From contig JAADCT010000061.1 of NCBI GenBank assembly GCA_013154305.1, forward strand, positions 1 to 34,082: a DNA stretch of 34,082 nucleotides, given 5' to 3'. How positions within the stretch are numbered: position 1 is the stretch's first letter; each line of letters starts with the position of its first letter. Source of the DNA: Aquificota bacterium. GTDB taxonomy: Bacteria; Aquificota; Aquificia; Aquificales; QOAS01. Below the pieces are notes generated by a model. That model saw only the letters and a program-made list of their open reading frames with translations, was not told where the DNA came from and ran no database searches. Made by a program: the position numbers and the translations under genes. Shown here one piece after another: positions 2,561-33,016 of this stretch.

Positions 2561-3025
2561 ATGGATTCTTGGGTTTGGGCGGTGGGTTTGGGCGCGGTGG
2601 TGGGGGGAGGAACGCTCCTCCTGCTGGTGCGCCGCTCCCGCCGAAGGACCGCGGAGGAAGAGGAATACTACGAGGTGGTGGAGGAGGATGAAGTTCCCTT
2701 CCGCGTAAAGGAGGAGGAAAACGAGTGTCCCGAAAGCGTTAAGAAAAAACTTCTCGAATACCAGTCGAGGCTCTTCAAAGAGGCCCACAAGGTTTACCTC
2801 GTAATCACCAACGCCTTTCAGGGAAAAACCCTCCCCCCGCACGTCAAGGAGGAGCTGGAGACCTTCTTAAGGAGCTACAACCGCATAAAGGAACTGAGGG
2901 AGGAGATAGAGGTCTATCCCTTCGGCGACTGCGATAAGGTATTCCACCTCAAGTTCAACTTCTATCAGAAACTCATAAAGGAGACGGCAAAAAGGCTGAT
3001 GCTGATGGCCCGTTCCCTCCGCTGA
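2561..3025 (+). CDS. Hypothetical protein: one N-terminal TM helix, acidic linker, helical cytoplasmic domain
   Basis: MDSWVWAVGLGAVVGGGTLLLLVRRSRRR then EEEEYYEVVEEDEV; ORF fits the gap between tmk and dapF. Confidence 0.6.
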   Translation: MDSWVWAVGLGAVVGGGTLLLLVRRSRRRTAEEEEYYEVVEEDEVPFRVKEEENECPESVKKKLLEYQSRLFKEAHKVYLVITNAFQGKTLPPHVKEELETFLRSYNRIKELREEIEVYPFGDCDKVFHLKFNFYQKLIKETAKRLMLMARSLR

Positions 3026-12915: not shown

Positions 12916-12948
12916 TCAACCAAAAATCCTTTGCAAGGAGGTAGGGCC

Positions 12949-13356
12949 ATGCCCAAAATTAACAGGTACTCCGAACTCATCAAAACCGCCCAGTCGGAAG
13001 CCAAGGTCGACTTCGTCGACAGGCACTCCCCTTTTGTTTACGTCGAAGGCGAAGCCGTCAAAGGTAAAAAGCTCAAAGTTAAGGTGAAGGTCGGAAAGGA
13101 ATACTCCCACCCGATGGACTTCGACCACTACATCGCCTTCGTCCAGCTTTGGGACGGCAACACCCTCCTGGGCCACGTTCAAATCCAACCCGAGATGCTC
13201 GGCAATCAAAGGGACCAGGTTGAGGTCGACTTTTACATCGTTCCCACCAAAAACAAACTCCAGCTCCACGCCCTGTCCTACTGCACCAAGCACGGCCTTT
13301 GGGAAAGCGACGTCGTAGAAGTCGAGGTCAAAGAGCCCGAAACGGCCACCGCCTAA
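12949..13356 (+). CDS. Superoxide reductase (class II / neelaredoxin-like)
   Basis: VDRHSPFVYV...GKEYSHPMDFDHYIAFVQL...ALSYCTKHGLWES gives four His plus one Cys of the Fe(His)4Cys centre; AAGGAGG SD upstream. Confidence 0.85.
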   Translation: MPKINRYSELIKTAQSEAKVDFVDRHSPFVYVEGEAVKGKKLKVKVKVGKEYSHPMDFDHYIAFVQLWDGNTLLGHVQIQPEMLGNQRDQVEVDFYIVPTKNKLQLHALSYCTKHGLWESDVVEVEVKEPETATA

Positions 13357-20939: not shown

Positions 20940-21812
20940 TTAGGAGGAGGCGGGTGCGTTTACGGTTACTTTGTCGACGGGTATGATGTGGTAGGCCAGA
21001 CCCGCCTCTTTGGGGTCGTAGCCGAGGGCGTAGGCCAGAAGTTCGGGCAGGTAAACGGAGGGAACGCGCGGGGCGTTTTCGACCATGTCCTGGTAGATGT
21101 CCTGGGCCTTGAAGCAGAGGGGACAGGGGGTTACCAGCATCTCGGCGCCGGCCTTTTTGGCCCCTTCGGGCGCCCTGACGACCTTTTTGAGGGCCACCGG
21201 CTTGTTGGTGTAGTAGGCGTGGTAGCCGCAGCAGGCGTCCTTACCCTCGTAGTCCTTGACCGGTTCGGCTCCGAGGGCCTCGACCAGCTCCTCCAGTCCG
21301 CTGGGATTTTCGCTGTCGACGACGGCTACTTCCTTGGGATACTTGATGTGACAACCGTAGTAGGTGGCGACCTTCCAACCTTTCAAAGGTCTCTTTACCT
21401 TTTTCCTTATGGTGTCGACGCCGACCTCCTCCACCAGGTAGGGTAGGATGTGCCAAATTTTGGCGGTGCCCTTGTATTCGAGACCTTCCTCGGCCAGGAG
21501 TTTGTTAATTTCCTCCCTCAGCTGGGGGTCGTTGTCGAGGGCGTGTTTGGTTTTGGCCAGGACCATGTAGCAGGTGTTGCACGAAACGAGGAGGTCCAAG
21601 CCTTCCGCCTCGGCGAGGGCAATGTTTCGGGCGTTGATGGAGTAAACGAGAAACTTGTTGGCCTCGTCTATGGTGTTTCCTCCGCAGCAGGTGGTCCTCT
21701 CGACCAGTTTTATGTCAACGCCGAGGTCGGCAAAGACCTTTTTGAGCATGTCAAACATGTGGGCGTCGGGCCCTTGAAAACAACAACCTTGATAAAAACC
21801 GACCTGTTTCAT
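20940..21812 (-). CDS. CCG-domain protein, HdrB/SdhE-like subunit of non-classical succinate dehydrogenase/fumarate reductase
   Basis: YQGCCFQGPD...TTCCGGNTIDEA...SCNTCYMVL and YYGCHIKYP...DACCGYHAYYTN...TPCPLCFKAQ: twin Cys-rich CCG domains. Confidence 0.88.
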   Translation of the reverse strand: MKQVGFYQGCCFQGPDAHMFDMLKKVFADLGVDIKLVERTTCCGGNTIDEANKFLVYSINARNIALAEAEGLDLLVSCNTCYMVLAKTKHALDNDPQLREEINKLLAEEGLEYKGTAKIWHILPYLVEEVGVDTIRKKVKRPLKGWKVATYYGCHIKYPKEVAVVDSENPSGLEELVEALGAEPVKDYEGKDACCGYHAYYTNKPVALKKVVRAPEGAKKAGAEMLVTPCPLCFKAQDIYQDMVENAPRVPSVYLPELLAYALGYDPKEAGLAYHIIPVDKVTVNAPASS

Positions 21813-21920
21813 CGCTTCCCTCCCGCAAGCTCTTTTACCCCCCTTTAAAAGGGGTTCTAAAGTCCGTTTTAAACTCCTCCGTTTTTAAAACGCAAGGGCT
21901 AACGGGTTTTCCCTCCCGCG

Positions 21921-22328
21921 TCAGGGACCGCGGCAGCGGACGGTCCGCGCGAATTCTACGAGCCCGCCTTCCAGCGAGTAGGCGTTTTCGAAACCCACCG
22001 CCCGCAGGACGAAGGCCGCAACCAGCGAGCGAACGCCGCTCCGGCAGGCCACCACCAACTTCCAACCTTCGTAGGAGGCGAGCCGTTTTAGGTTTTCCTC
22101 CGTAAGGAGTTCGTTCAGCGGAACCTCCAGGGTGTGGGAATACCTGAAGCCCACCAGCGAGGTCTCCGGCGGCGTCCTTACGTCCAGCAGGAGGACCTTT
22201 TCCCCCTCGTCCATCCATCGGAGGAGGGTCTCGGGCGAAACCCTGCAGGGTTTTCGGGCCAGCTCCTTCTCCCCGAGTCGGGAAAGGAGGGGGGCCAGTC
22301 GGGCGGCCAGCTCGAGGTCGGGTTTCAC
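21921..22328 (-). CDS. Rhodanese-domain protein
   Basis: VLLLDVRTPPETSLVGFRYSHTLEVPLNEL...LVVACRSGVRSLVAAFVLRAVGFENAYSLEGGLVEF; CRSGVR active-site loop; GTG start. Confidence 0.88.
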   Translation of the reverse strand: MKPDLELAARLAPLLSRLGEKELARKPCRVSPETLLRWMDEGEKVLLLDVRTPPETSLVGFRYSHTLEVPLNELLTEENLKRLASYEGWKLVVACRSGVRSLVAAFVLRAVGFENAYSLEGGLVEFARTVRCRGP

Positions 22329-22340
22329 CTCTTTACCCCC

Positions 22341-23456
22341 TCAGGAGGCTCCGAAAAACTCTCCCAGCTTCTTCCAAAAGCGGGAGAAGAAGTCCGACTT
22401 TTGCTCTTCAAACTTTTCGGTTATGCGGGTGCAAACGTCGGCCTTAAAGACCTCCTCCACCCGCTTGTCTATGCGCCTGACGTGGTGGAAGTCGATGTCC
22501 AGGTGGGGTTTCTTTTCCTTCATCACCTCCAGTATGAGGTCCCTAAACTCGAGCAGTCCGGGAAGGGGTTTGGGAACCTCCCAAACCTCGGCCCCCTTTT
22601 CGCGGAACTTGTTAATGAGCGGCGTGGGGTCGACGCCGTAGACCTCCTCCGGCAAGGCCAAACGGTTTATCTGGCCGGTGGCGTATACCCAGTCGACGAA
22701 GTGTTGCAGTTTGCGGACGCCGGGATAGTCCCTGAAGCCCATTTCGGCGGCGATACCCCGAACGTTTTGAATGTCCTCGGCGGGCCGGACCCCTTTGGGG
22801 CAAACGTAGATGCACTTTTGGCACTGGACGCAGCTCCAAACGTCGCCCGCCTCGAGGGCGTTTTTGACCATTTCCCGCTTGTGCTCGTCCTTTACGCGGC
22901 TGTCGACGGCGTAGCGGTAAACCCGCGAAAAGGCGAAGGGACCGGCGTACTTGGGGTCGTCCATTACGGCCTCACAGTTGCCGTAGCAGGCGAAGCAGAG
23001 GATGCAGTTGGTGGGCCTTTCGTACTTTTTGACCTCCTCGGGCGGAATGCGGTATTCCCTTTCGGGTATCGGTTCCTTCGGCTCGCACCACGTTTTTAGG
23101 GTTTTGAGGTTTTCAAAGGCCGCGTCGTGGTCGACCACCAGGTCCTTGACCGGTTTCAGGAAGTTGAGGGGTTCGACCGTTATCGGGCGGCCGCCGGAGG
23201 CCTCAACCAGGTCCCTAAAGCGGGTTTTGCACGCGAGACGGGAAACGCCGTTTACCTTTACGGCGCAGGAACCGCAAACGGCCGCCCGGCAGAAGAAGCG
23301 AAAGCTCAGCGTGGGGTCCAACCTCTCCTGGACGAAAAAGAGGGCGTCCAGCAGGGTTTGAACCTCGTCGAGGGGAACCTCGTACTCCCTGTAAAAGGGG
23401 TTTTGGTCCACCTCGGGGTTGTATCGGTAAATCCTGAGGACCGCCTTTTCGGCCAT
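22341..23456 (-). CDS. Fumarate reductase/succinate dehydrogenase iron-sulfur subunit (non-classical)
   Basis: FFCRAAVCGSCAVKVNGVSRLACKTR ([2Fe-2S]); TNCILCFACYGNCEAV and WSCVQCQKCIYVCPKGV (two CX2CX2CX3C clusters); AAGGAGG SD. Confidence 0.93.
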   Translation of the reverse strand: MAEKAVLRIYRYNPEVDQNPFYREYEVPLDEVQTLLDALFFVQERLDPTLSFRFFCRAAVCGSCAVKVNGVSRLACKTRFRDLVEASGGRPITVEPLNFLKPVKDLVVDHDAAFENLKTLKTWCEPKEPIPEREYRIPPEEVKKYERPTNCILCFACYGNCEAVMDDPKYAGPFAFSRVYRYAVDSRVKDEHKREMVKNALEAGDVWSCVQCQKCIYVCPKGVRPAEDIQNVRGIAAEMGFRDYPGVRKLQHFVDWVYATGQINRLALPEEVYGVDPTPLINKFREKGAEVWEVPKPLPGLLEFRDLILEVMKEKKPHLDIDFHHVRRIDKRVEEVFKADVCTRITEKFEEQKSDFFSRFWKKLGEFFGAS

Positions 23457-23485
23457 CTCAAAGAACCTCCTTGTTTTTGTAAAGG

Positions 23486-23677
23486 CTATTGAGACCGCGG
23501 GCGGTTTTTGCCCTTGAGGACCTCCCCGGGGGTGAAAATCGGCTTTTCGACTCCGCCGCCTCGGGTCGCCGGCTTGCCGTCTTTCCTCCCGCGGGTCGAA
23601 ACTTTTGGGGGCCTTTCCCCGGCGGTTGAAACGTCGGCCTTACCTTTTTCGGTTTCCGGCTTATTTAGAACCTCCAT
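23486..23677 (-). CDS. Possible small basic, low-complexity protein between the flavoprotein and iron-sulfur subunit genes
   Basis: ATG with upstream AAGAAAGAGG; MEVLNKPETEKGKADVSTAGERPPKVSTRGRKDGKPATRGGGVEKPIFTPGEVLKGKNRPRSQ; fits the gap in the operon. Confidence 0.45.
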   Translation of the reverse strand: MEVLNKPETEKGKADVSTAGERPPKVSTRGRKDGKPATRGGGVEKPIFTPGEVLKGKNRPRSQ

Positions 23678-23747
23678 CGGTTAAAACCCTCTTTCTTAAA
23701 CTTAGCGCGGTCTTTTTCTCCCCGAAGGCGGCCGAAAGGGGAGGAGG

Positions 23748-25448
23748 TCAATACTTCCTTTCCTGCGGCTGCCACTTGGTAATGACGACCTCCTTCCAAC
23801 CGTGCTCGAGGGTTCCGTCCTCCTTTCTCCTTACGAGGGAGTGTTTGAGGTAGTTTTCGTCGTCCCTTTGGGGGTAGTCGAGGCGGTAGTGGGCGCCGCG
23901 GCTTTCCTTTCTCTCAACGGCGCAGAGGGTGGTCACCTCGGCCAGGTCGAGGAGGTTTAAAAATTCGAGCGTTTGAACCAGGTTGAGGTTAAACCTCCTG
24001 GACCGGTCGACGACGGCCAGACCGCTTTTTGCCCTCTCTTTGAGCTCGCGGATGGCCTCGAGGGCTTCGAGCATCGGCTTTTCCTCTCGGAAGATGCCCA
24101 CCTTCGACGCCATAACTTCGCCGAGCTCCCTCCTCATTTGACCGAGGTTTTCCCTCGGCTCCTTTTCCGTAAGGGACTTTATAAACTCCTCCTCCCTCCT
24201 TACGAACTCGGCGCCGTCGGTGGCGGCGTGCTCGACGCCGACGACGTATTCGGCCGCATCCTCGGCCGCCAGCTTTCCGAAGACCAGTATGTCGAGGAGG
24301 GAGTTTCCGCCCAGACGGTTGGCACCGTGGACCGAAATGCAGGCGGTCTCTCCCGCGGCGTAAAGGCCCTTAATTTCGGTCCGACCGTACTTGTCGGTGT
24401 CTATTCCCCCCATCGAATAGTGGGCCGTGGGCCTTATCGGTATCGGCTCTTTTACCGGGTCGACGCCCTCGTAAACGCGGGCGTGTTCGACCGTTTGGGG
24501 CAGACGCTCCATAAGCTTTTCCTCGCCCAGGTGCCTGAGGTCGAGGCAGATGTAGTCGCCTTCGGGACCGCAACCGCGACCCTCGAGGATTTCCCTCTCT
24601 ATGGCGCGGGCGACTATGTCCCTGGGGGCGAGCTCCATCTTTTCGGGGGCGTAGCGCTTCATAAAGCGCTCGCCGTCCTTGTTTATCAGGTAGCCGCCCT
24701 CTCCGCGGGCGCCCTCGGTAATCAAAATTCCCGTTTTCCTGAGACCGGTGGGGTGGAATTGAACGAACTCCATGTCCTTTAGGGGAATGCCCGCCCGCAA
24801 GGCGGCGGCGCTGCCGTCGCCCGTGTTTCCGAGGGCGTTGGACGTGCGGTTCCAATACATCCGGGCGTGCCCGCCGGTGGCCAAAATTACCGCCTTGGCC
24901 TTGACGAAGTGAACGCCGCCGTTTCGGATGTCCCAGGCGGTGACGCCCAAAACCCTTTCCCCGTCGTGGACGAGGTTTAGGAGAAACCACTCGTTGAGAA
25001 ATTCGACGCCCTGCCGGAGGGCTTGGTCAAAGAGCGTGTGGAGGATTACCAAACCGGTTCGGTCGGCCGCGTAGCAGGTTCGGGGAAAAGAAGCCCCTCC
25101 GAAGGGCCTTTGGGCTATCCTTCCGTCGGGGAGCCGCGAAAAGGGCACTCCGCGGTGTTCTATGTCGTAGATGATTTGGGGACCCATTTGGGTCATCAGT
25201 TCGACCGCGTCCTGGTCGGCCAGGTAGTCGGAACCTTTGACGGTGTCGAAGGCGTGCTTTTCCGGGCTGTCGGGGGCGACGTTTCCGAGGGCGGCGTTGA
25301 TTCCGCCTTCGGCGGCACCGGTGTGGGAGCGAACGGGATAGACCTTCGACATTACGCCGACTTTAAGCTTGGGATTTTGGGAGGCCCAAAGGGCGGCGTA
25401 GAGACCCGCTCCTCCGGCTCCGACGATGAGTATGTCGTATTCGAGCAT
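23748..25448 (-). CDS. Fumarate reductase/succinate dehydrogenase flavoprotein subunit
   Basis: DILIVGAGGAGLYAALWA...RSHTGAAEGGINAALGN...GSDYLADQDAVE...RPFGGASFPRTCYAADRTG...FVQFHPTGL...RPTAHYSMGGIDTD...GETACISVHGANRLGGNSLLDILVFGKLA. Confidence 0.95.
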   Translation of the reverse strand: MLEYDILIVGAGGAGLYAALWASQNPKLKVGVMSKVYPVRSHTGAAEGGINAALGNVAPDSPEKHAFDTVKGSDYLADQDAVELMTQMGPQIIYDIEHRGVPFSRLPDGRIAQRPFGGASFPRTCYAADRTGLVILHTLFDQALRQGVEFLNEWFLLNLVHDGERVLGVTAWDIRNGGVHFVKAKAVILATGGHARMYWNRTSNALGNTGDGSAAALRAGIPLKDMEFVQFHPTGLRKTGILITEGARGEGGYLINKDGERFMKRYAPEKMELAPRDIVARAIEREILEGRGCGPEGDYICLDLRHLGEEKLMERLPQTVEHARVYEGVDPVKEPIPIRPTAHYSMGGIDTDKYGRTEIKGLYAAGETACISVHGANRLGGNSLLDILVFGKLAAEDAAEYVVGVEHAATDGAEFVRREEEFIKSLTEKEPRENLGQMRRELGEVMASKVGIFREEKPMLEALEAIRELKERAKSGLAVVDRSRRFNLNLVQTLEFLNLLDLAEVTTLCAVERKESRGAHYRLDYPQRDDENYLKHSLVRRKEDGTLEHGWKEVVITKWQPQERKY

Positions 25449-29993: not shown

Positions 29994-31409
29994 TTAATTA
30001 TCGGCCGCTAACGCCAGATAACGCTCGTAGGTTCGGGGAAAGGCGGTCCGAACGTCGACGAAACTTCCGCTGGGAAAGCGACCGAGGTTGGCAAAGACCT
30101 CGACCAGCATCTTGGCGGCGCTCTCGGGCGAGTGTTTGGGTGCCGCCTTCAGCCGCTTTACGGAGGGAAAGCGTTCCCCGTCGTGCTCGAGGACGACCTT
30201 TTGAAGCATCGGCGTCCAAATCAGGCCCGGCGCCAGCGCAATCAGGTGCGAGCGCTCAAACTCGTGGCTGTAGAGCTTTATCGCGCAGTTTAGCGCCGCC
30301 TTCGAAAGCGAGTAGGCGTTCCAGCCTTTGTTGCAGTTTACCGCCGCACCGCTGGAGATTGCAATAATTTGACCCGCCCGCAGGTCTCCGCGGTTTTGAA
30401 GCTCCCAAAGTTGGTCCAAAATCAGTTTGTTGCTCCACAGGTTTACCGCCATTACCTCCTCCAGTTCCCTCAGCGGGAGCCTTACCATCTCCGCCAGCCG
30501 GCCGAGGACGCCGGCGTTCAGAACCGTCCAGGGGAGGGCGGCCTTCAGCCCCCCCAAGAGGCGGTCGGTCTTCAGCTTTACCTCCTCGAGGTTTCGGAGG
30601 TCGGTTTGGACGAACTTAACCTCCCCGCGGTTTTGAAGTTCGGGCGGGAGCTTCCTCGAGAGGGCGAATATCCGATAGCCCCTTCGGAGGTATTCGAGGG
30701 CCAGCGCCCTTCCGAGACCCGAGCCGACGCCCGTTATAAACAGGTTGAGGTGGGGTTTGACGAGCGAAAAGACCTCCTCGAGGACCTCCCCGACCGACTT
30801 TCCGGTGGTGTCGACGACCGCGGCGTCCTCGGCCGGTTTGAAGGGATAGCGCTCCCTCTTTCGGTCCCTCTCGTCCCTTTCGACTATCGCCTTTAGGACC
30901 TCCTCGTAGGAGACCCTTTTGCCGGCCTCCAGCAGTTGGCGGTGGCGCCTCTTTGCCCTCTCTTCGGGCGAGGCGGTCAGAAATACCTTTACCTCGGCGT
31001 CGGGAAAGACGAAGAGACCCGCGTCGCGGCCCTCTACCACCGCGTTGGCCCCGCCCACCAGCCGCCGCTGAAGCTCGAACATCCTCTCCTTTACCTGCGG
31101 GTGGCGGGCAACCAGCGAGGCGACCCGCCCGACCTCCTCGTCCTCTATAAGGTCGGTAACGTCCTCCCCGTCGAGGAAGACCTTAAACTCCCACCCCTCG
31201 AAGGAAACCTCCAGTTTCGTCTCCTCGAGGAGTTTTAAGAGTTCCTCTGGCCCGTAGTCGTCCTTTTTTCCCAACTTCCTCAGGGCCGCCAGCGCGAGGG
31301 CGCGATAGGTTGCCCCGGTGTTCAGGTAAAAGAAGCCGATTCTTTTGGCCAGCTCTTTGGCCACAGTAGACTTTCCGCTGGCGCTGGGTCCGTCCACCGT
31401 CACTATCAT
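29994..31409 (-). CDS. cmk: Fusion protein: cytidylate kinase (N-term, 31409-30750) and short-chain dehydrogenase/reductase (C-term, 30749-29994)
   Basis: Cmk: MIVTVDGPSASGKSTVAKELAKRIGFFYLNTGATYRAL...VVEGRDAGLFVFPDAEVKVFLTAS...ERDERDRKRERYPFKPAEDAAVVDTTG. SDR: LFITGVGSGLGRALALEY...LNAGVLG...IAISSGAAVNCNKGWNAYSLSKAALN...LAPGLIWTPM. Confidence 0.9.
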   Translation of the reverse strand: MIVTVDGPSASGKSTVAKELAKRIGFFYLNTGATYRALALAALRKLGKKDDYGPEELLKLLEETKLEVSFEGWEFKVFLDGEDVTDLIEDEEVGRVASLVARHPQVKERMFELQRRLVGGANAVVEGRDAGLFVFPDAEVKVFLTASPEERAKRRHRQLLEAGKRVSYEEVLKAIVERDERDRKRERYPFKPAEDAAVVDTTGKSVGEVLEEVFSLVKPHLNLFITGVGSGLGRALALEYLRRGYRIFALSRKLPPELQNRGEVKFVQTDLRNLEEVKLKTDRLLGGLKAALPWTVLNAGVLGRLAEMVRLPLRELEEVMAVNLWSNKLILDQLWELQNRGDLRAGQIIAISSGAAVNCNKGWNAYSLSKAALNCAIKLYSHEFERSHLIALAPGLIWTPMLQKVVLEHDGERFPSVKRLKAAPKHSPESAAKMLVEVFANLGRFPSGSFVDVRTAFPRTYERYLALAADN

Positions 31410-31477: not shown

Positions 31478-31705
31478 ATGGTAAAAAGGCCGCCCGCCGC
31501 GTTTTTTGAGCTATCGGGAAAGGTTTTGGCCGCCCTGACGGCGCTGGTTTTGCTCCTTTGGTTCGTTCGGCAACAGACGGCCCTCTTTTTGACGATTTTC
31601 GTTTTGCTCCCCCTCTGGGCCCTGTGGATTTGGTTCAATCCCCTTTTGGAGAAAGGGGAGGAGAAACCGACCGGGGAGGCTCAACCTCCGACCGAAGAGA
31701 GGTAA
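31478..31705 (+). CDS. Hypothetical small two-TM protein
   Basis: VLAALTALVLLLWFV and ALFLTIFVLLPLWALWIWF helices; 75 aa; fits the divergent gap and converges on nth. Confidence 0.6.
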   Translation: MVKRPPAAFFELSGKVLAALTALVLLLWFVRQQTALFLTIFVLLPLWALWIWFNPLLEKGEEKPTGEAQPPTEER

Positions 31706-32355
31706 AAGTCGCACAGGTCCTTCAGCGGGCACCTTTCGCACTTTGGCCTTTTCGGGTCGCAGATTGTTTGACCCAATCCCACCAGCAGGTAGTTGACCTT
31801 TCTTTTGTAGCCGTCGGGGGTGATTTTCAAAAGTTCCCTTTCGGTTTCCTCGGGCCTCCGCGTTTGGACCAGTCCGAGGAGGTTCGATATACGGTGGACG
31901 TGGGTGTCGACGGCCACTGCGTCCTTTCCGTGGGCGTGGGTCAGGATGACGTTGGCCACCTTGCGGCCCACCCCGGGAAACTTCACCAGCTCCTCGAGGC
32001 GGTCGGGCAGGCGCCCCCCGTAGTCTTCGACCAGCATTCGGGCGGCCTCTTTGAGGTACTTGGCCTTTTGGCGGTGGAGGCCTATGCCCTTTAGGGCCTC
32101 CTCCACTTCGGACAGGGGTGCCCTTGCCAGCTTTTCCGGCGTCGGGTAGCGTTCAAAGAGGCGGCGGCAGACGGGAACGGTCTTTTCGTCCCGGCTCCGG
32201 GCCGACAGTATTCCGCAAACTAAAATTCGGTAGTGGTCCCTTCCCTGAACCTCGAACATGCGGTGAACGGGCGGCTCGAGGGCGGGGACGAACCTCTCGA
32301 GCCGCCGGACGACCTCGACCACCTTTCGGGTAGGGTCCATAGCTTCTTTAACCAT
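31681..32355 (-). CDS. nth: Endonuclease III
   Basis: ILSARSRDEKTVPVCRRLFERYPTPEKLA...LVEDYGGRLPDRLEELVKFPGVGRKVANVIL...AVDTHVHRISNLLGL...CDPKRPKCERCPLKDLC [4Fe-4S]. Confidence 0.95.
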   Translation of the reverse strand: MVKEAMDPTRKVVEVVRRLERFVPALEPPVHRMFEVQGRDHYRILVCGILSARSRDEKTVPVCRRLFERYPTPEKLARAPLSEVEEALKGIGLHRQKAKYLKEAARMLVEDYGGRLPDRLEELVKFPGVGRKVANVILTHAHGKDAVAVDTHVHRISNLLGLVQTRRPEETERELLKITPDGYKRKVNYLLVGLGQTICDPKRPKCERCPLKDLCDFYLSSVGG

Positions 32356-33016
32356 TTTCGTCGGCCCAACCTTTTGAGACGAAAAAGGGTTTGAGTTCGT
32401 CGGGAACCTCCGAGGGGTCCTTCTTTCCGTTGACGTTTACCAGCAGGAGGGCGCCCCTTCCCCTCCCGTAGAGGTTGGCAAAGTCGTAGAGGCCCCCGGC
32501 CACGGTCAAAAGACCCTTCTCGACCCTGTCGCGGTAGCGCGACAGGGCCACCTCGACCTGAAAGTGGACGTTTTCCAAAACGGCCTCCTCGACGAGGTCG
32601 TGCGTCCTTTTAAACCGCTTTCGGAGGGCGCGGCGAAGGGGCACGCAGAGGGTCGAAAGCTCCTTTACGACCGCCGGCGGTTGGTCGCCGTAGTCGCCGA
32701 GGGCGGCCGAAACGGCGCCGCACCTCACGTGCCCCACTATCAGAAGAAGGGGGGTTTGCAGGTGGAGAACCCCGTAGTCGACCGAACCGAGGGCGTTCAA
32801 AATTTGGTTGCCCGCGTTTCGGACCGAAAAGGCGAAGTTGGTCGCCTCGAGGCCCCAAAGTTCGGTCTGAACGCGCGAGTCGGAGCAGTAAACGAGCGTC
32901 ACCTGCGGCGATTGTTTTCTCAAAAAGGGTCTAAAGTAGTCGGGAGAGAGTTTTTCCCTCTTTCGCAGGTGGCGAAGGAAAACCTCCCTCAGGACGCCGA
33001 TACCTTTTTCCCCCAT
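32348..33016 (-). CDS. Beta-class carbonic anhydrase
   Basis: VTLVYCSDSRVQTELWGLE...FSVRNAGNQI...SVDYGVLHLQTPLLLIVGHVRCGAVSAAL. Confidence 0.93.
   Translation of the reverse strand: MGEKGIGVLREVFLRHLRKREKLSPDYFRPFLRKQSPQVTLVYCSDSRVQTELWGLEATNFAFSVRNAGNQILNALGSVDYGVLHLQTPLLLIVGHVRCGAVSAALGDYGDQPPAVVKELSTLCVPLRRALRKRFKRTHDLVEEAVLENVHFQVEVALSRYRDRVEKGLLTVAGGLYDFANLYGRGRGALLLVNVNGKKDPSEVPDELKPFFVSKGWADENG

Follow-up and report, generated by a model that had tools for sequence, protein, structure and literature searches.

The locus examined here raises the question of why a bacterium should carry a cytidylate kinase (Cmk) and a short-chain dehydrogenase/reductase (SDR) in a single reading frame: whether the two are really one protein and, if so, whether their union reflects a metabolic connection. 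The window, by which we mean the whole 34,082-nucleotide stretch of DNA that was analysed, contains an open reading frame at exactly 29994-31409, as the earlier note had placed it, and the strand, which was not given there, is minus (ATG at 31409, stop at 29994-29996). Its computed product has 471 amino acids and a mass of 52.69 kDa. The claim that a complete Cmk is followed in frame by a complete SDR holds, in that the two Pfam matches are consecutive; PF02224 (E 2.3e-69; 233.8 bits against a cut-off of 26) aligns from position 1 to 210 of the 211-position profile, and PF00106 (E 3.1e-21) falls in the C-terminal half. The motifs quoted in support of that claim (GPSASGKST, DAAVVDTTG, LNLFITGVGSGLGR, NAG, ISSG and YSLSK) are all present in frame. 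The coordinates of the individual features are collected in Table 1.

Table 1. Features of the cmk-SDR fusion gene, in window coordinates.
Feature	Position	Strand	Basis
cmk-SDR fusion gene, 471 codons and stop	29994..31409	-	ORF and Pfam; homologues share the same start Met
Cytidylate kinase domain, residues 1-220: P-loop GPSASGKST, GRDAG, ERDERDRKR, last helix 206-220	30750..31409	-	PF02224, TIGR00017, 2cmk fold match
Junction V217-K-P-H-L221, without in-frame start codon	30747..30761	-	AlphaFold model, codon scan, six-species alignment
Classical SDR domain, residues 222-471: TGVGSGLG, LNAG, N323, S353, Y366, K370	29997..30746	-	PF00106; model pLDDT 95.9; alignment
ALSRK after SDR strand 2	30651..30665	-	Alignment; cofactor reading predicted
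Insertion of four residues (NRGD, 339-342) ahead of strand 5; fused SDRs only	30384..30395	-	Alignments
SGSFVDVR with invariant Asp452, matching Asp257 of sepiapterin reductase in position	30048..30071	-	Alignment and PMC7520308
Extra C-terminal helix, residues 455-471	29997..30047	-	Alignments and model

The fusion gene has an endonuclease III-like gene (PF00730) and a carbonic anhydrase gene (PF00484) upstream, which overlap each other by eight bases (31681-33016), and a Na+/H+ exchanger gene (PF00999; 28807-29979) downstream. Elsewhere in the window, the minus strand at 20940-25448 carries genes for FrdA/SdhA-like, FrdB/SdhB-like and CCG-domain (PF02754) proteins, with one for a rhodanese-domain protein lying between them; together they look like a succinate dehydrogenase/fumarate reductase cluster of non-classical type, the domains tested with Pfam being CCG and rhodanese. 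A desulfoferrodoxin-family protein (PF01880), probably a superoxide reductase, is encoded at 12931-13356. At 2561-3025, adjoining a thymidylate kinase-like gene, lies a gene for a protein of 154 amino acids with a probable N-terminal membrane stretch and no Pfam match; in a related genome (G003) a similar-looking small gene adjoins the same thymidylate kinase-like gene.

The fusion is a feature of one genus. Among the 136 Aquificota genomes of our phylum survey, fused cmk occurs only in the genus of the window (g1), in which the reading frame runs to 469-472 amino acids (546 from stop to stop in the window), full-length copies elsewhere in the phylum having 200-259. Complete fused copies come from six species, namely the window and genomes G001-G005; G006, a seventh genome, has the beginning of the kinase at the edge of one contig and the end of the SDR at the edge of another, an arrangement consistent with, though no proof of, a fused gene that assembly has split. 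A scan of contigs for the fusion returned only relatives titled as Aquificota and one contig of the same genus labelled Gammaproteobacteria. The latter, QOAS01000167.1, titled 'Gammaproteobacteria bacterium isolate MAG 128', has a fusion of Aquificales type, and its title looks wrong.

The SDR itself is more widespread than the fusion: 56 of the 136 genomes have an orthologue, these comprising most of family f3, four genera of family f2 and the window's genus, and outside that genus it is a stand-alone gene in every case. These stand-alone proteins of f2 and f3 are 47-59% identical to the fused domain and have the same motifs, but they are 228-245 amino acids long, begin at their own start, are unlinked to cmk and lack the four-residue insertion; the C-terminal helix of the fused SDRs is likewise mostly missing from them, genus g19 excepted. 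In trees, the fused SDRs form one clade (support 100/100), as do the fused kinases (98/96). The SDRs of families f1, f2 and f3 each fall on one side of a branch, which points to vertical descent of the SDR. On these trees, the simplest history would have the SDR inherited vertically, joined to the kinase once in the ancestor of the genus, and lost from other lineages. The Cmk and SDR halves are alike in base composition by codon position, and dN/dS values for the close pairs G003-G004 (0.12 for Cmk, 0.16 for SDR) and G001-G002 (0.09 and 0.10) indicate that both halves are under purifying selection.

A (d)CMP kinase transfers phosphate from ATP to CMP or dCMP, giving CDP or dCDP and ADP. The kinase half scores 213.9 bits with the NCBIfam model TIGR00017, above the (d)CMP kinase cut-off of 135.55, and its best fold match is 2cmk, the CMP kinase of E. 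coli (TM-score 0.90 by target length). GPSASGKST, EGRDAG and ERDERDRKR align with the E. coli and Yersinia enzymes, so that both the P-loop and the CMP-site motifs are present; the roles of the P-loop and of the CMP-site arginine and aspartate motifs we take to be established. The domain thus resembles other bacterial (d)CMP kinases (TIGR00017/PF02224, 2cmk) in being full-length with both sets of motifs, and differs in continuing into an SDR at the point where a normal Aquificota Cmk stops. PF02224 matches once in every genome of the genus, the fused kinase therefore being the sole CMP kinase found, and on these grounds it is expected to be active as a CMP/dCMP kinase.

The C-terminal half bears the marks of a classical SDR, with TGxxxGxG, NAG, the N323-S353-Y366-K370 residues and a Rossmann fold, and both the cofactor motif and the N-S-Y-K residues are intact in all six complete fused copies. 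In SDRs, a basic or an acidic residue after strand 2 indicates NADPH or NADH, respectively. ALSRK at this place provides a basic residue and no acidic one, which points to NADPH rather than NADH, and the fused SDR probably uses NADPH. As to its class, the suggestion that it resembles sepiapterin reductases is borne out by the placement of S353, Y366 and D452 and by the related models, though all the scores lie far below cut-offs. The active site of human sepiapterin reductase includes Ser157, Tyr170 and Asp257 (PMC7520308), with spacings of 13 and 87 residues, compared with 13 and 86 in the window protein, and the Asp452 position is invariant across the 31 SDR relatives aligned. With sepiapterin-reductase-like SDRs (TIGR01500, PRK06924, PRK07023 and the yeast protein YIR035C, 3kzv/6uhx) it has in common TGxxxGxG, NAG, the S-Y-K spacing, a tryptophan before the catalytic tyrosine and a C-terminal SG..VD motif. 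PRK07023 (97 bits against a cut-off of 292) and the benzil reductase model PRK06924 (77.2 against 258) are its best models. TIGR01500 gives 24.9 bits against 206.55 for the C-terminal 130 amino acids, and in a scan of the whole domain it is outside the best 25 models, the lowest of which scores 42.2. Many SDRs of known structure match it, with TM-scores of roughly 0.7-0.8 and identities of 18-24%; none is a close match. By these comparisons the domain resembles a sepiapterin-reductase-type carbonyl reductase and is not assignable as sepiapterin reductase itself; its substrate is most likely a small carbonyl compound, which it would reduce.

Fusions of Cmk to other enzymes have precedents. The earlier note had mentioned such fusions and knew of none to an SDR, and our searches agree with it on both counts: NCBIfam holds PanC-Cmk (NF010004), AroA-Cmk (NF008816) and Cmk-Der (NF007071) families, a fusion of IspH and CMP kinase in a single species is mentioned in PMC4746011, and no Cmk-SDR fusion is named in NCBIfam or in the open-access literature searched, where the papers retrieved for such a fusion dealt with other subjects. 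Like these, the present protein unites a complete Cmk with another complete enzyme in a limited lineage. Unlike PanC-Cmk, AroA-Cmk and Cmk-Der, it has an SDR as its second domain, and the bits it obtains from NF010004, NF008816 and NF007071 derive solely from its kinase half and fall far short of the cut-offs. Given that fusions with PanC, AroA and Der were already known, the SDR is a new partner within a known kind of fusion; that it is new is most likely, going by the NCBIfam names and the literature search. PanC, AroA, Der and IspH have no pathway in common with Cmk. The known partners being outside its pathway, Cmk fusions are weak evidence for a pathway link, and this favours independent activities.

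Our essential contention is that the gene specifies one bifunctional protein, the product of a single fusion and with two independent activities, to which we give a probability of roughly 0.78. In an ancestor of the genus, cmk and a pre-existing sdr gene would have come to adjoin, after which loss of the cmk stop codon and of the sdr start codon would have produced one frame, which has been retained since this single origin. The N-terminal half would be the only (d)CMP kinase of the cell and the C-terminal half a sepiapterin-reductase-like SDR, probably NADPH-dependent, that most likely reduces a small carbonyl compound. The two active sites would most likely work independently, and the gain, if there is any, may lie in having an essential enzyme and a non-essential one expressed and stabilised together. 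Within this account the one open frame, its conservation and its single origin, the purifying selection acting on each half, the intact motifs and a confidently predicted fold of two domains are demonstrated; we infer both activities, the cofactor, the mode in which the fusion formed and the lack of pathway coupling. Retention across the genus at about 60% identity means that the physical link could matter, and the insertion and C-terminal helix of the fused SDR could be adaptations to its partner.

The best-surviving alternative places the SDR in nucleotide metabolism, with a nucleotide, a nucleotide sugar or a reduced pterin or folate for thymidylate synthesis as its substrate, and takes the fusion to tie its activity to the phosphorylation of CMP. 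The fusion is fixed in the genus, the SDR is sepiapterin-reductase-like with a conserved pterin-site Asp, and dihydrofolate reductase (DHFR; PF00186) is missing from all 136 Aquificota genomes, being present in 9 of 14 control genomes, which makes another pterin reductase conceivable. Moreover, the R and K of FPSVKR..PK, in the probable substrate loop, are invariant and would suit a phosphorylated or anionic substrate, so that a nucleotide link is not impossible. However, while DHFR is missing throughout, the SDR was not found in 80 of the genomes; the two profiles do not match, and the SDR as a substitute for DHFR in thymidylate synthesis is unsupported. Nor was any pterin-dependent aromatic amino-acid hydroxylase found above cut-off in the Aquificota genomes surveyed, which leaves the candidate role of a sepiapterin reductase feeding such enzymes unsupported. 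An operon link in unfused relatives also fails to appear: in the genomes outside the genus where both genes were located, the SDR was not found beside cmk, and its neighbours vary by genus: in one, for example, they are genes for V-type ATPase and GMP synthase, in another RlmI-like and TruD-like genes (names by eye). A metabolic link between CMP kinase and SDR is therefore not supported by gene context, and we regard this alternative as unlikely. In the particular form of a (d)CMP kinase coupled to NADPH-dependent reduction of a nucleotide-, pterin- or phosphate-bearing substrate, which would be a new pyrimidine-nucleotide-connected step in deep-branching thermophiles, it is quite improbable. 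The earlier proposal of a bifunctional enzyme thus stands in so far as two probably functional enzymes with intact motifs are joined; its other part, a kinase tied to an NAD(P)H-dependent reduction in its own pathway, finds no support in view of the patchy, stand-alone distribution of the SDR, its changing neighbours and the known Cmk fusions that also join partners outside nucleotide synthesis.

The SDR might instead have lost catalysis and serve only to stabilise or regulate Cmk, for example by sensing NADP(H). AlphaFold2, given aligned relatives both with and without the fusion, predicted two intact, packed domains (whole-chain pLDDT 95.4, pTM 0.92), and the high pTM suggests that Cmk and SDR are held in a defined arrangement; this predicted packing, together with the fusion-only insertion and C-terminal helix, would suit such a role. 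Against it, the conservation of cofactor motif and catalytic residues in every complete fused copy and the dN/dS of 0.10-0.16 for the SDR half make a degenerate or moonlighting domain highly unlikely.

That the halves are produced as separate proteins, by internal initiation or cleavage, is scarcely credible. In-frame GTG codons do occur near the join in G001, G003, G004 and G005, but in the window no in-frame ATG, GTG or TTG lies between 15 codons before and 10 codons after it, as had been claimed, and our codon scan of the fused copies found no start near the join common to all species. The near-absence of a linker, also claimed from the start, is confirmed by the model, in which the last Cmk helix (ending at 220) and the first SDR strand (222-226) stand about one residue apart and no linker is available for cleavage.

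A sequencing or assembly artefact, such as a missed stop codon, can be dismissed: although the named fusion copies all come from metagenome-assembled genomes, the check among relatives that the earlier note proposed shows the fusion in five further species, in assemblies produced independently by separate projects and plainly distinct in sequence (60-64% identity), and the join reads [KE]P[HY]LN[LV]FITG, ungapped, in all six species aligned.

This analysis adds an entry to the list of Cmk fusion partners, and one that marks an entire genus of uncultured, heat-loving Aquificales, and it draws notice to an SDR family conserved in the Aquificales. If the link between the two enzymes is functional, the fusion would be a Rosetta-stone clue to the pathway in which the SDR operates. 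If it is not, a fusion has been kept for the lifetime of a genus without metabolic logic, and this would advise caution in fusion-based prediction of function.
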